From the NCBI GenBank assembly GCA_020444505.1, contig JAHLKU010000001.1, positions 1 through 62,809 of the forward strand: DNA of 62,809 nt, read 5' to 3'. Positions 15,464-20,635 of this stretch are shown piece after piece. Numbering within the stretch: the first letter of the stretch is position 1; every line of letters starts with the position of its first letter. The DNA is from Actinomycetota bacterium. Lineage in GTDB: Bacteria > Actinomycetota > Acidimicrobiia > Spongiisociales > UBA11373. The notes below the pieces were generated by a model, which worked only from the letters and a program-made list of their open reading frames with translations, searched no databases and was not told the origin of the DNA. A program made the position numbers and the translations under genes.

Positions 15464-17017
15464 CTACGGCGCCGGGGCGAGGCACACGCCGAAGACGGCG
15501 ACGGTGGATGCCGGTCCGGCATCCCCGAGATCCGGGTTCCGGGCCCAGACACCCCAGATGCCCTCCAGGAAGCCGGACGCCTCGTAGACGATGTCCAGGC
15601 TGGACGACCCGCCGCCCACCCGGAAGCTGCCGGCGGGGCACGACGGGGCGGGCACGAAGTCGACCGAGCCGTCGGCGACGGAGACGGTGCGCTGCACGAT
15701 CTCGGTCGAGAACCCCTCGCCGTGGATGCACAGCACCGACGCCCGGAGGCTCTTCGGCCCGCCGACGCCCAGTTCGTCGAACGCCAGCACCGACCAGCCG
15801 TCGTCGGTCGGGATGCTGGCGAGGACGTTGAGGCCGGCATCGGCATGCCATCCGCCGGCGGTCCGGGTGGTCCCGGCCGGGCACGACACGCGCACCGTGC
15901 CGGCGCCCGCTTCGCTCACCTCGATCGACTCGTTCGTCATCGTCACGTGGATGCCCTCCATGCAGAGGACGTGCGACGCGACGGACACCGAGCGCGACCC
16001 GGGCGCCTGCACCGAGGCCACCCACTGCGTCGGTGACGGCGGTGCGTTGGCGGTGATCCACCCGCGCTCGGGTGCTCCCACCGCCTCGCTGGAGCCGAAC
16101 CCGCCGCCCAGGGCCTGGGACCCCGACGGGCAGTTCGCCCACGACCGGGCTGGCGTGTCGTCGCCGGGATCCGACGTCTCGGCGGTGCCGTCCACGAAGA
16201 AGGGGTCGGCGGCGCACTCGGGAGCGGCCCACTCGCCGCCGCCGGCGCTGCCGAGATGGGTGCCGTCGGGCGCCAGGCCGGTCACCAGCACGGTGAACAC
16301 CGCGTCGCACGGCACGGTGAGGTCGTAGGAGTCCCGGTTGCCCTGGATGACCTCGTCGTCGAACCCGGACGTGCCGGCGGAGGGGTTGCGCCATTCCCAG
16401 TGGACCCGGTACTGCATCTGCCCCACGCCGTGCGCCCAGGCGACGGTGCTGAGGCCGTCGGCGGTGTGGCCGACGAAGTGCACGTCGTCGGGACCGCGGG
16501 CCTCGGGAGGGCAGGCGGACGTCTCCACGGACGAGGAGCCGAACGCCACCACGGCACCGCCGGCATCGACGGCCTGCAGGTCGAAGGAGGCCGCCGTGCC
16601 GCACCCCGCCGGCGTCGCCCACGACGTCGCGCCGGCCGGCAGCGACCCCGACACGGGGCCGGCCGGGGTGGTGAACGTGTACGTGTAGGCGGACTCGCCG
16701 TCCACGTCGCCCCAGGTGAAGAGGATGCCGTCGTCGGTGAGCGTGGCGATCAGCCCAGCGATCGCCGCGGGGGAACCCGCCGGGGGAGAGGTCGTCGTGG
16801 TGGACGACGTCGTCGCGGCACCGGTGGTGGCCGTCGATGCGGGAGCACCGCCCGTGGTGGTGGTGGAGGAGGCACCGGGTGCGGCGGTTCCGTCCTCTCC
16901 GCCGGAGAAGGCCCAGATCCCCAGCGCGATGGCGAGTACGGCGACGGCGCCCAGGCCGACGGCCCACCACGGAACGGGGCGACGGGGTGCGGACGGGGGT
17001 GCGGGCTGGTCGGTCAC
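15464..17017 (-). CDS. Membrane-anchored extracellular protein with Thr-rich stalk and C-terminal Cys-bearing repeats
   Basis: N-terminal TM WWAVGLGAVAVLAIALGIWAF; STTTTGG…TTSSTTTTSPP stalk; three CP[SA]G…GGG/GGW…C segments. Confidence 0.75.
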   Translation of the reverse strand: MTDQPAPPSAPRRPVPWWAVGLGAVAVLAIALGIWAFSGGEDGTAAPGASSTTTTGGAPASTATTGAATTSSTTTTSPPAGSPAAIAGLIATLTDDGILFTWGDVDGESAYTYTFTTPAGPVSGSLPAGATSWATPAGCGTAASFDLQAVDAGGAVVAFGSSSVETSACPPEARGPDDVHFVGHTADGLSTVAWAHGVGQMQYRVHWEWRNPSAGTSGFDDEVIQGNRDSYDLTVPCDAVFTVLVTGLAPDGTHLGSAGGGEWAAPECAADPFFVDGTAETSDPGDDTPARSWANCPSGSQALGGGFGSSEAVGAPERGWITANAPPSPTQWVASVQAPGSRSVSVASHVLCMEGIHVTMTNESIEVSEAGAGTVRVSCPAGTTRTAGGWHADAGLNVLASIPTDDGWSVLAFDELGVGGPKSLRASVLCIHGEGFSTEIVQRTVSVADGSVDFVPAPSCPAGSFRVGGGSSSLDIVYEASGFLEGIWGVWARNPDLGDAGPASTVAVFGVCLAPAP

Positions 17018-17104: not shown

Positions 17105-17512
17105 CTACCCCTCGTCCACCAGGTCGGCGAGCGAGGTCGACGCCAGCGAACTGCGGAAGGTCTCCTGCGCCGCCGCCCAGGTGTCGTGGACCGCGCAGCG
17201 GTCCTCCCATGAGCAGGGGCCGCCGCGGAGCACGCACTCGGTCAGGTCGAGCGGCCCTTCTGCGGCCTCGACCACGTCGAGCAAGGAGATGGCGGACGGG
17301 GAGCCGGCCAGGGTGTACCCGCCGCGCGGCCCCGCGGCTGCCTCGAACACGCCTGCCGCGGTGAGGAGCGCCGCGACCCTGCTGAGGAAGGCGCGGGGGA
17401 TGTCCATCGACGCGGCGATCTGGGCGGCCTTCCGTCGTTGCGGGTGGTGCGATGCGACGTCGAAGGCGGCGCGCACGGCGTAGTCCCCGCGCCTGGTCAG
17501 GGTGATCCTCAC
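17105..17512 (-). CDS. Rrf2-family transcriptional regulator with three cysteines (NsrR/IscR-like)
   Basis: MRITLTRRGDYAVRAAFDVA…IAASMDIPRAFLSRVAALL HTH; ECVLRGGPCSWEDRCAVHDTW Cys cluster. Confidence 0.9.
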   Translation of the reverse strand: MRITLTRRGDYAVRAAFDVASHHPQRRKAAQIAASMDIPRAFLSRVAALLTAAGVFEAAAGPRGGYTLAGSPSAISLLDVVEAAEGPLDLTECVLRGGPCSWEDRCAVHDTWAAAQETFRSSLASTSLADLVDEG

Positions 17513-17546
17513 CGGATCTCCCGCCCTCTAACATCGACGTATTCGC

Positions 17547-17569
17547 TCAACGTTGACCTCAACAGTTGA
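17547..17569. promoter_or_regulatory. Tandem dyads TCAACGTTGA and TCAACAGTTGA, putative Rrf2 operator
   Basis: Two inverted repeats sharing TCAAC/GTTGA arms, 12 bp apart, between divergent rrf2 and octaheme genes. Confidence 0.6.
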
Positions 17570-17621
17570 CCATTGCCGGACCTCAGCGTAGTTTCGACGG
17601 GAAGTCGGAAAGGAGCAACCC

Positions 17622-18929
17622 GTGCACGACGGCGCCACCCCCGAGACAGAGGACCGTCCACGGTGGTGGACGGCGGGCCGCATCGCCGTCATCGCCTTCG
17701 CCGGCACCCTCCTGGTGCTGGCACTGATCCTGGTCATCGCGGTCAGCAGCGACGGCACCACCGGGAGCGGACCCGACCGCGTCGATGCGCTGGCCGGCAG
17801 CGATGACGACTGCGTCGCCTGCCATCGCAACACCACTCCGGGCATCGTGGAGCAGTACGGCCACTCCACCATGGCGGCCGCCAACGTGGAGTGCCGCGAC
17901 TGCCACGAGGTGGATCAGGGGTACCCGGGCTCGACGGCGCACGAGGGGACCTGGGTGCTCGCCAGCCCCACCTCCGCGATGTGCGAGCAATGCCATCCGG
18001 CAGAGACCAGGCAATACCTCGCCAGCCGGCACGGCATCCCGGCGTACGTCGCGATGACGGGGACCGACGGCCTCTCCGCCGATCTGCTCGCCATGTACGA
18101 GGCGATCCCCGAGGGTGGGTTCGCCCCCGACAAGGAGCGCAACGCCCTGTTCGCCATGGAGGGTCCCGAGATCACGCGGTTCGCCTGCGAGGGCTGCCAC
18201 AACATCGGGCGGCCCGCCGCGGACGGATCCGTTGGGGAGTGCCAGCAGTGCCACCTCCGCCACGAGTTCAGCCTCGAGCAGTCCCGGAAGCCGGAGACCT
18301 GCAACGCCTGCCACATCGGGCCGGACCACCCGCAGTGGGAGATCTACCAGGAGTCGCCGCACGGCATCGCCTACGCCACCGGCGGCCATGAGTGGCACTG
18401 GGACGTCGAGGCGGGCCGGGCGACGGTCGTCGACTTCCCGGCACCGACCTGCGCGACGTGCCACATCAGCGCGTTCGGCTCCACCGGGACCACCCACGAC
18501 GTGGGCGAGCGGCTCACCTGGTACCTGTTCGCCTCGGTGAGCGAGCAGCGGCCCAACGCCGACTCCAATCGGGTCAGGATGCAGACGGTCTGCCTCGAGT
18601 GCCACAACCCCGCGTTCGTCGACGACTTCTACGCAGGCGCCGATGCGGCGACGCTCAGGGTCAACGCATGGGTGCTGGAGAGCCGCGAGATCATGGCGCC
18701 GCTCGTCGAGGCCGGGCTGCTGACGCCGGAGCCGTTCGACGAGCCGATCGACTTCGTCTCCTTCGACCTCTGGCATCACTGGGGGCGCACCGCCAAGTTC
18801 GGCACGTGGATGCAGGGGCCGGACTACGTGCAATGGCACGGCGCCTACGAGGTGCTGCGAGAACTGGCCGAGCTGCGCACCCTGGTCGACGAGAAGCTCG
18901 CCGAGGCCGGCCTGCTCGAAGGCGAGTAG
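17622..18929 (+). CDS. Membrane-anchored octaheme c-type cytochrome, hydroxylamine oxidoreductase (HAO)-like
   Basis: Eight CxxCH motifs (CVACH, CRDCH, CEQCH, CEGCH, CQQCH, CNACH, CATCH, CLECH); N-terminal TM; HAO-like CHIGPDHPQWEIYQESPHG and WHHWGRTAKFGTWMQGPDYVQWHGAYEV. Confidence 0.88.
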   Translation: MHDGATPETEDRPRWWTAGRIAVIAFAGTLLVLALILVIAVSSDGTTGSGPDRVDALAGSDDDCVACHRNTTPGIVEQYGHSTMAAANVECRDCHEVDQGYPGSTAHEGTWVLASPTSAMCEQCHPAETRQYLASRHGIPAYVAMTGTDGLSADLLAMYEAIPEGGFAPDKERNALFAMEGPEITRFACEGCHNIGRPAADGSVGECQQCHLRHEFSLEQSRKPETCNACHIGPDHPQWEIYQESPHGIAYATGGHEWHWDVEAGRATVVDFPAPTCATCHISAFGSTGTTHDVGERLTWYLFASVSEQRPNADSNRVRMQTVCLECHNPAFVDDFYAGADAATLRVNAWVLESREIMAPLVEAGLLTPEPFDEPIDFVSFDLWHHWGRTAKFGTWMQGPDYVQWHGAYEVLRELAELRTLVDEKLAEAGLLEGE

Positions 18930-18932
18930 CGG

Positions 18933-19850
18933 ATGTACCACCTGGCGACCCTGTGGCCGTGGGCGGGCGAGCGGGCCCGGAGGGTCTCCCGCGACGATGC
19001 CATCCTGCTCCTGGCTGCGGTGAACCAGGTGTTCCTGGGTGTGGACATCTACCTGGCGCACCTCGCCGATCAGACGATCCAGCCCAACGAGTGGATTCCG
19101 GTGGTGTTCGGCCCGGCGGCGGGGGCGCTGCTGCTGATGGCCGGGGCCCTGGCGCTGTGGAGGCGCCCGCCGGCTGCGGTGCTGGCGACCTCGGTGTTCG
19201 CGATCAGCGCCGTGGTGGGCGCCCTCGGCATCTACTTCCACCTCGTCCGGGCCGCGCTCCCCACGGGCCCGATCACCTACCGGCTGACCACGCGGCTGCT
19301 GGTGTGGGGCCCGCCGTTCCTGGGCCCCTTGATGTTCGTGCTGGTGGCGCTGTTCGGGATCAGTGCCGTCTGGCGGGAGGATCCGCCCGACAGCGGCCGT
19401 CTCCGCATCCTCGGGAACCTGCGGCTGAAGATGCCCCTCCGCAAGACGGACGCCTACTTCCTGCTGGTCGGCTCGACCGCCATGGTCGCCACCGTCAGCG
19501 CCGTGTTCGACCACGCCCGCACCGGATGGGACAACACCAACCTGTGGATCCCCACGGTGGTCGGGGTGCTGGTGTCGATCGTCTGCTTCGCGATGGCGAC
19601 GATCCGGCGGCCCCGGTGGGGCGACCTGCTGGTCTACGCCGGGGCGATGGGCCTGATGGTGATCACCGGCCTGCTCGGCGTCTGGTTCCACTTCGGGGAC
19701 AACGTGACGTCCCGGGGGGTCGTCGTGGTCGAGCGATTCATCCGGGGAGCGCCGATCATGGCGCCGCTGCTGTACGCCAACGTGGGCCTGTTCGGCCTCG
19801 TCGTGCTCCTCGACCCGGCGGTGCGCCGCTCCGGGGAGGGGGGCGGCTAA
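18933..19850 (+). CDS. Polytopic membrane protein of two tandem ~4-TM repeats with conserved His; likely partner of the octaheme cytochrome
   Basis: ATG 3 bp after the cytochrome stop; about eight hydrophobic segments; halves align (EWIPVVFG/LWIPTVVG; GALGIYFHL/GLLGVWFHF). Confidence 0.7.
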   Translation: MYHLATLWPWAGERARRVSRDDAILLLAAVNQVFLGVDIYLAHLADQTIQPNEWIPVVFGPAAGALLLMAGALALWRRPPAAVLATSVFAISAVVGALGIYFHLVRAALPTGPITYRLTTRLLVWGPPFLGPLMFVLVALFGISAVWREDPPDSGRLRILGNLRLKMPLRKTDAYFLLVGSTAMVATVSAVFDHARTGWDNTNLWIPTVVGVLVSIVCFAMATIRRPRWGDLLVYAGAMGLMVITGLLGVWFHFGDNVTSRGVVVVERFIRGAPIMAPLLYANVGLFGLVVLLDPAVRRSGEGGG

Positions 19851-20635
19851 CCCGCCTTGCGGGCCGCCTTGGTGGCCTCGACGCTGGCCTTGAGGGCCTC
19901 CATGAGGTCGACCACACCGGTGGGCTGGGGGGCCTCGGTGGTGACGATCTCCTCGCCCTCCATCTTGCGGCGGGCCAGTTCCTCGACGGCGGCGCGCGAC
20001 TCGTCCACCCACGCGGCGGGGTCGAACGGCGAGGTGAGGTTGTCGATGATCATCTCGGCCATCTTCACCTCGTCGGGGCGGACCTCCACCTCCTCGGCGA
20101 TCTCCTCGAACGCCGGCTCCCGGATCTCGTCGGGCCAGAACATGGTCTCCAGCACCAGCACCTCGCCGTCGGTGCGGAGGGTGGCGGGGTACTCACGGCC
20201 CCGCATGGCGACCCGGGCCAGCCCGACCATGCCCTTCTCGTCGAGCGCCTGCACCAGGATGCGGTACGCCTTGGCGCCGGTCTTCTCGGGGGCCAGGTAG
20301 TACGACTTCTGGTAGTAGATCGGGTCGATCTCCTCGTCCCGGACGAACTGCACCACGTCCACGGCACCGGTGGTGCCGGAGCGGAGCGCCGCCTGCAGTT
20401 CGTCGTCGTCGAACACCACGTAGCGGCCCTTGTCGATCTCGTAGCCCTTGACGATCTCGTCGGAGGCCACCTCGGCACCGTCGGCCTCGGCCACCTTGCG
20501 GTAGCGGATGCGGCTGCCGTCGCTCTTGCGCAACTGGTTGAACTTGGGGCGCTTCTCCTCCGTGGCCGAGTAGAGGCCGACCGGGATGGTGACCAGGCCG
20601 AAGGAGATGGCTCCCTTCCAGATGGGTCGGGGCAT
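19847..20635 (-). CDS. ku: Non-homologous end-joining protein Ku
   Basis: MPRPIWKGAISFGLVTIPVGLYSATEEKRPKFNQL; bacterial Ku core, 262 aa. Confidence 0.96.
   Translation of the reverse strand: MPRPIWKGAISFGLVTIPVGLYSATEEKRPKFNQLRKSDGSRIRYRKVAEADGAEVASDEIVKGYEIDKGRYVVFDDDELQAALRSGTTGAVDVVQFVRDEEIDPIYYQKSYYLAPEKTGAKAYRILVQALDEKGMVGLARVAMRGREYPATLRTDGEVLVLETMFWPDEIREPAFEEIAEEVEVRPDEVKMAEMIIDNLTSPFDPAAWVDESRAAVEELARRKMEGEEIVTTEAPQPTGVVDLMEALKASVEATKAARKAG

Follow-up and report, generated by a model that had tools for sequence, protein, structure and literature searches.

An octaheme HAO-superfamily cytochrome with a conserved 8-TM membrane partner, a putative redox anchor, in Chloroflexota and an acidimicrobial family

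An octaheme c-type cytochrome of the HAO superfamily and a membrane protein with eight transmembrane helices (8TM protein) form a conserved gene pair in the window (the whole 62,809-nucleotide stretch analysed here, from an acidimicrobial genome) and in many Chloroflexota. By its predicted type, the cytochrome represents a known kind of enzyme, the reductive HAO; what is new is its membrane partner, for which the best reading is a redox anchor that lacks annotation and works with two unrelated enzymes. Our leading interpretation, held with somewhat less than even confidence, is that the pair forms a membrane-bound, quinol-linked reductase, likeliest acting on nitrogen oxides, that was derived from Chloroflexota and locally came under the control of an Rrf2 regulator.

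Gene arrangement in the window

The pair is encoded on the forward strand. The cytochrome gene (17622-18929; 435 aa; PF13447 E 1e-29) opens with a GTG start codon preceded by AAGGAG and ends in TAG (18927-18929), followed by CGG and then by the ATG of the 8TM gene at 18933 (18933-19850; 305 aa), a 3-bp gap exactly as reported in the first-pass annotation. A gene for an Rrf2-family regulator (17105-17512; 135 aa; PF02082 E 6e-33) diverges from them on the reverse strand, and its coordinates and three cysteines (Cys93, Cys100 and Cys106) confirm its earlier description as a 3-Cys Rrf2 gene. The flanks consist of an unrelated secreted protein (15464-17017) and Ku (19847-20635), both named from their translations, and no NapC-, NrfH- or HaoB-like reading frame was seen among the neighbouring translations, in keeping with what had been noted before. 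The Ku gene is convergent to the 8TM gene, and their stops overlap by 4 bp (19847-19850).

An octaheme cytochrome of predicted reductive type

Sequence and fold place the cytochrome in the HAO superfamily. It contains exactly eight CxxCH motifs in the HAO order, at residues 64, 91, 121, 189, 207, 227, 277 and 324, as compared with at most two in 5000 shuffles of its residues, and one hydrophobic N-terminal membrane helix (aa 20-42; 17679-17747, forward strand) that is kept in most relatives and was modelled with a pLDDT of about 90 in a fused cytochrome-8TM model; both features had been recognised at first reading. Profile searches of the PDB matched IhOCC (4qo5, E 2e-44), HAO (1fgj, E 3e-31), and HDH and Kuenenia HAOs (E 1e-23 to 2e-24), and a fold search with the fused model matched the same HAO-type enzymes (best E 7e-6). 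Together with the PF13447 match, these results bear out the HAO-like identity originally assigned. We also weighed the Ardenticatena surface cytochrome ARMA_580 (PMC5808234) as a possible characterised homologue but set it aside, given its seven motifs and different best match.

The active site separates this cytochrome from the oxidative enzymes. Asp235-His236 (18324-18329, forward strand) aligns with the Asp-His pair of HAO, which we take to be catalytic there, and is invariant in 76/76 relatives aligned. The column of the tyrosine that cross-links catalytic heme 4 in oxidative HAO and hydrazine dehydrogenase was set by Ruegeria HaoA, whose gene adjoins haoB and which has Tyr at this position; the column holds Gln in all 76 relatives (Gln404 in the window; 18831-18833, forward strand), and in the enzymes of Desulfobaculum and Desulfosarcina it holds Trp. 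HAOs lacking the cross-link tyrosine are reductive (PMC12758564, PMC3701875), and since the site is Gln throughout, the cytochrome is predicted to work in the reductive direction. The retained Asp-His pair and absent Tyr match the epsilon-Hao type of reductive HAO, an oxidative HAO identity is disfavoured, and the NCBIfam hydrazine dehydrogenase profile gave 87 bits against a cut-off of 900.

Among known enzymes, IhOCC of Ignicoccus hospitalis is the best PDB match by both sequence and fold, and is likewise octaheme and devoid of the cross-link Tyr, but its counterpart of the Asp-His pair has no His (PDV versus PDH); we know of no 8TM partner for it. Kuenenia HAOr (Kustc0457/0458, 6h5l) and other reductive HAOs share the HAO fold and reductive type, whereas the partner of Kuenenia HAOr is, from the entry title, a small heme protein with which it forms a soluble complex, and not an 8TM anchor. 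The HAO/HaoB system of ammonia oxidisers and Ruegeria pomeroyi haoAB have the superfamily and the order of the eight hemes in common with the window cytochrome, which differs in lacking the cross-link Tyr; the 8TM profile had no match at the Ruegeria haoAB locus.

The cytochrome-8TM pair is the conserved unit

Searching GTDB genomes with an alignment of the cytochrome recovered at least 131 relatives, and the best 80 of 131 were analysed. These have about 60-77% identity to the window protein and come mostly from Chloroflexota (Anaerolineae, Caldilineae, Ardenticatenia and Dehalococcoidia), the others being Acidimicrobiia and single MAGs labelled Planctomycetota, Verrucomicrobia and Tectomicrobia. 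An 8TM gene lies downstream of the cytochrome in 77 of these best 80 loci, at a distance of 15 nt or less in 67/80 start-codon calls, with three loci counted twice. The exceptions are one contig end (L031) and two Dehalococcoidia loci (L087, L096), where a profile search of the flanks found no 8TM match. The octaheme-type 8TM gene also adjoins the cytochrome in all three carrier genomes among 301 sampled from the phylum of L036, itself one of the three, and within the window's family both genes are also present in a second species of the genus and in two further genera. In the 'Tectomicrobia' MAG, the 8TM gene occupies two overlapping frames (L044:7273-8215), reflecting a frameshift or sequencing error.

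The uncharacterised membrane partner postulated by the first-pass annotation is thus near-constant, and the arrangement, which might have been confined to this genome, is conserved far outside it. The same co-occurrence check did not uphold the self-contained trio that had been proposed: among the 80 loci, only the window and L008, from another genus of the same family, have an Rrf2 gene diverging from that of the cytochrome, while the family's L006 and L007 loci have no adjacent Rrf2. The conserved unit is therefore the pair, and its regulation by Rrf2 is local. A search of open-licence papers on octaheme or HAO-like proteins of Chloroflexota, Anaerolineae and Actinobacteria, and on the membrane partners of such proteins, found no published description of the pair, nor a characterised cytochrome family with this 8-TM partner, which had been named as the alternative to a new module.

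A close described analogue is the epsilon-Hao/HaoCA system of reverse-HURM modules (Nautilia, and plasmids of Desulfobaculum and Desulfosarcina), which has the same octaheme superfamily, the Asp-His pair, no cross-link Tyr, and a membrane electron partner encoded alongside. The two plasmid enzymes are the closest annotated neighbours outside the 8TM-linked cytochrome group, with 35-36% identity to the window cytochrome over the shared region, and are encoded downstream of a NapC/NirT gene. Their partner is this NapC/NirT tetraheme cytochrome, whereas the window partner is an 8-TM protein without CxxCH and the window cytochrome, unlike theirs, has its own membrane helix. An adjacent tetraheme gene of the HaoCA kind is missing, and the 8TM gene stands there instead in the 77 loci; judged from gene order, the 8TM protein takes the place of the NapC/NirT quinol dehydrogenase beside the cytochrome. 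The NapC/NirT and octaheme HAO-like gene pair is located at L101:4287-6284 in Desulfobaculum bizertense and at L102:4233-10593 in Desulfosarcina ovata; the Desulfosarcina pair has norR and genes for a quinol-type NO reductase and a hemerythrin next to it.

A duplicated four-helix module shared with flavodehydrogenases

AlphaFold2 modelled the 8TM protein with eight membrane helices (pLDDT 92, pTM 0.91), and its halves are homologous (hhalign probability 98%, E 7e-14), which substantiates the duplicated 8-TM architecture first described from the translation. Module 1 (aa 15-152; 18975-19388, forward strand) contains His43 and His103, and module 2 (aa 166-300; 19428-19832, forward strand) His194 and His253. 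All four are invariant in 67/67 8TM proteins and lie near the C-terminal ends of TM1, TM3, TM5 and TM7. The N-terminus and the TM2-3 and TM6-7 loops are more positively charged (K+R 10.3 inside versus 5.8 outside; D+E 6.3 versus 4.0), suggesting that the four histidines may be on the outer side of the membrane. The protein bears the signature by which we define the 4-TM module here: a His at the outer end of TM1, another at that of TM3, and a GPP..AP motif before TM4; this motif is degenerate in module 2 (GAP), and the two His are the firm signature.

Searches with the 8TM protein gave no significant match in Pfam, NCBIfam or PDB profiles, the best Foldseek hit of its model against the PDB had an E of 0.32, and no CxxCH occurs in its sequence. 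The profile and structure searches that had been recommended at the outset thus placed the cytochrome in the HAO superfamily and the regulator in PF02082, and left the 8TM protein outside any known family or PDB fold. Profile, Foldseek and locus searches ruled out HaoB, NapC and NrfD identities. Anchors of the NrfD/PsrC/DmsC kind also have eight helices in two bundles and partner extracytoplasmic redox enzymes, but a Pfam scan of 67 members yielded no NrfD match and one weak DmsC match (1/67, E 0.006), and Foldseek found no NrfD/PsrC-type quinone anchor. Up to 10/67 members gave weak holin-family Pfam matches (best E 2.5e-4), which in the case of the window protein fall short of the curated cut-off; we read them as chance because hydrophobic helices resemble each other. 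When the cytochrome and 8TM protein were modelled by AlphaFold2 as one chain through the stop, the heme regions were of low confidence and no interface was defined (pTM 0.56).

Further copies of the 4-TM module, whether single, in tandem or fused, were detected with the 8TM profile in other members of the Actinomycetota and Chloroflexota. Of 28 module loci examined, two were octaheme (L122, L123) and one was cut by a contig end; in 25/25 others, the module adjoins genes resembling those for a Gluconate_2-dh3 subunit and for a GMC oxidoreductase, assignments that were confirmed by Pfam for part of the 25. Both His are invariant in the aligned GMC-linked modules (40/40 with the module 1 profile, 46/46 with module 2). 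Gluconate 2-dehydrogenase-type complexes (GMC and Gluconate_2-dh3), in their actinobacterial and Chloroflexota versions, use the same module with a flavoenzyme as catalytic partner, where the window has a multiheme cytochrome. Electron transfer is the simplest role for an anchor that accompanies both a flavodehydrogenase and a multiheme cytochrome, and this company lends independent support to the electron-transfer role initially assigned to the 8TM protein; by analogy, we infer a link to the quinone pool. The module/GMC loci (L009-L017, L117-L136) often have genes for an FAD-oxidase/Fe-S protein, an enolase-like protein and a thiamine-diphosphate enzyme nearby.

Proposed role of the pair

Tethered by its N-terminal helix, the cytochrome would act outside the cytoplasmic membrane as a reductive HAO-type enzyme, receiving electrons through the 8TM protein and reducing most probably nitrite, NO or hydroxylamine, for detoxification or respiration of nitrogen oxides. 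More generally, and with the chances not quite in its favour, the 4-TM module may be a quinone-reactive, possibly heme b-carrying anchor of a new fold, whose duplicated form would connect the quinone pool of Chloroflexota and some Actinomycetota with GMC flavodehydrogenases or with a reductive HAO-like octaheme cytochrome; the latter combination would amount to a nitrogen-oxide reductase, respiratory or detoxifying, that needs no NapC. We count against this quinol-linked reading the L087 and L096 cytochromes without an adjacent 8TM gene, and the bc complex, Cyd-I-like and cytochrome b genes added in some operons.

A nitrogen-oxide substrate is favoured by the strictly conserved HAO-type Asp-His active site, by the norR and qNOR genes beside the nearest annotated HaoA-like locus, and by a Cu-nitrite reductase in the window's genome that would make NO (match over the family cut-off, G000:C13:21353-22273, L112). 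The same quinol-linked architecture could instead serve a sulfur oxyanion, a metal or an extracellular acceptor, a reading that we regard as unlikely but deserving of attention: the octaheme class includes a tetrathionate reductase (PMC5317091), surface exposure of cytochromes, albeit of a different one, occurs in Chloroflexota that have no classical outer membrane (PMC5808234), and the denitrification genes are patchy. Of 20 genomes with the pair, narG was present in 5 and nirK exceeded the cut-off in 4, so that the pair is not tied to nitrate respiration and its link to that process by co-occurrence is weak; the window's genome has a nirK match and no narG match. The frame of its Cu-nitrite reductase ends in an extra plastocyanin-like copper domain.

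The direction of electron flow does not follow from the anchor alone, since its GMC partners donate electrons to the membrane. That the cytochrome oxidises a reduced nitrogen compound while the 8TM protein reduces quinone, as with the GMC dehydrogenases, would agree with the dehydrogenase nature of the anchor's other partner and with the retained Asp-His pair; we nevertheless find it improbable, given the missing cross-link Tyr in 76/76 relatives and the NapC/NirT partner of the nearest annotated neighbours, which is typical of quinol oxidation. Still less probable is a maturation, anchoring or transport role for the 8TM protein, in which case the cytochrome would draw its electrons from elsewhere, for example a bc complex. 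The genes for a bc complex and for cytochrome c maturation that flank the pair in several Chloroflexota, the lack of a proven heme-binding motif in the 8TM protein, the two loci without it and the epsilon-Hao of Caldithrix, thought to function without NapC (PMC5317091), speak for it, but four strictly invariant, symmetrically placed His speak against it, and cytochrome maturation does not fit a module that also pairs with flavoenzymes needing no heme attachment.

If the quinol-linked nitrogen-oxide reductase reading is right, many Chloroflexota MAGs (at least 131 matching loci in one pattern scan) encode such an enzyme under genes usually annotated 'hao' or 'multiheme cytochrome', which could be mistaken for nitrification genes. 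A membrane family that lacks annotation could be named and given a role open to testing, one kind of anchor would be seen to serve two unrelated redox enzymes outside the cytoplasm, and how NapC-free HAO-like enzymes reach the quinone pool would become directly testable.

Gene surroundings of the pair vary. In one group of Chloroflexota (L083, L095 and L097-L099), it has cytochrome b/Rieske/cytochrome c genes on one side and cytochrome c maturation genes on the other, and a ferredoxin/cupin gene is found just upstream of the cytochrome in eight Chloroflexota loci (for example, L023:5302-5907 and L027:18-404). The upstream position is taken by a cytochrome b, ferredoxin and FlpD fusion at L122:169-2301, a cytochrome b561-type gene in L092 and a Cyd-I-like gene in L038.

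Origin and local regulation

In a PMSF tree of the cytochromes, the acidimicrobial sequences form one clade (support 100/100) that branches among Chloroflexota, with Anaerolineae/Thermoflexus-type sequences as closest sister at a support of 87/77, which is not firm. Profile searches of the window's phylum found the octaheme-type 8TM protein only within the window's own family. With the acidimicrobial clade nested among Chloroflexota, the simplest reading is that the unit entered this family by horizontal transfer from Chloroflexota, and it would then have been placed beside an Rrf2 gene in at least two genera.

The window Rrf2 has its three Cys in the C-terminal half, as in Fe-S regulators of the NsrR/IscR type, and the L008 orthologue also has three. 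Its scores lie far below the NCBIfam cut-off for the NsrR equivalog (41.8 versus 182 bits) and below that for IscR (73.7 versus 207.55 bits). Under the leading interpretation, it would respond to NO or redox state. The Rrf2-cytochrome intergenic region contains CTCAAC/GTTGAG twice in the window and three times in L008. This 6-mer was picked post hoc, and the shuffle statistic covers all 6-mers: any 6-mer was equally repeated in both regions in 1/2000 paired dinucleotide shuffles. The window copies make up a perfect palindrome, TCAACGTTGA (17547-17556), and a second one, TCAAC-A-GTTGA (17559-17569); the first is a candidate Rrf2 operator and the second provides candidate operator half-sites, and Rrf2 probably binds such TCAAC-GTTGA palindromes between the genes. 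Crp/Fnr-type genes occur near the pair in 10 Chloroflexota loci, one of them checked by Pfam, and the remaining Chloroflexota loci have no recognisable regulator adjoining the pair.
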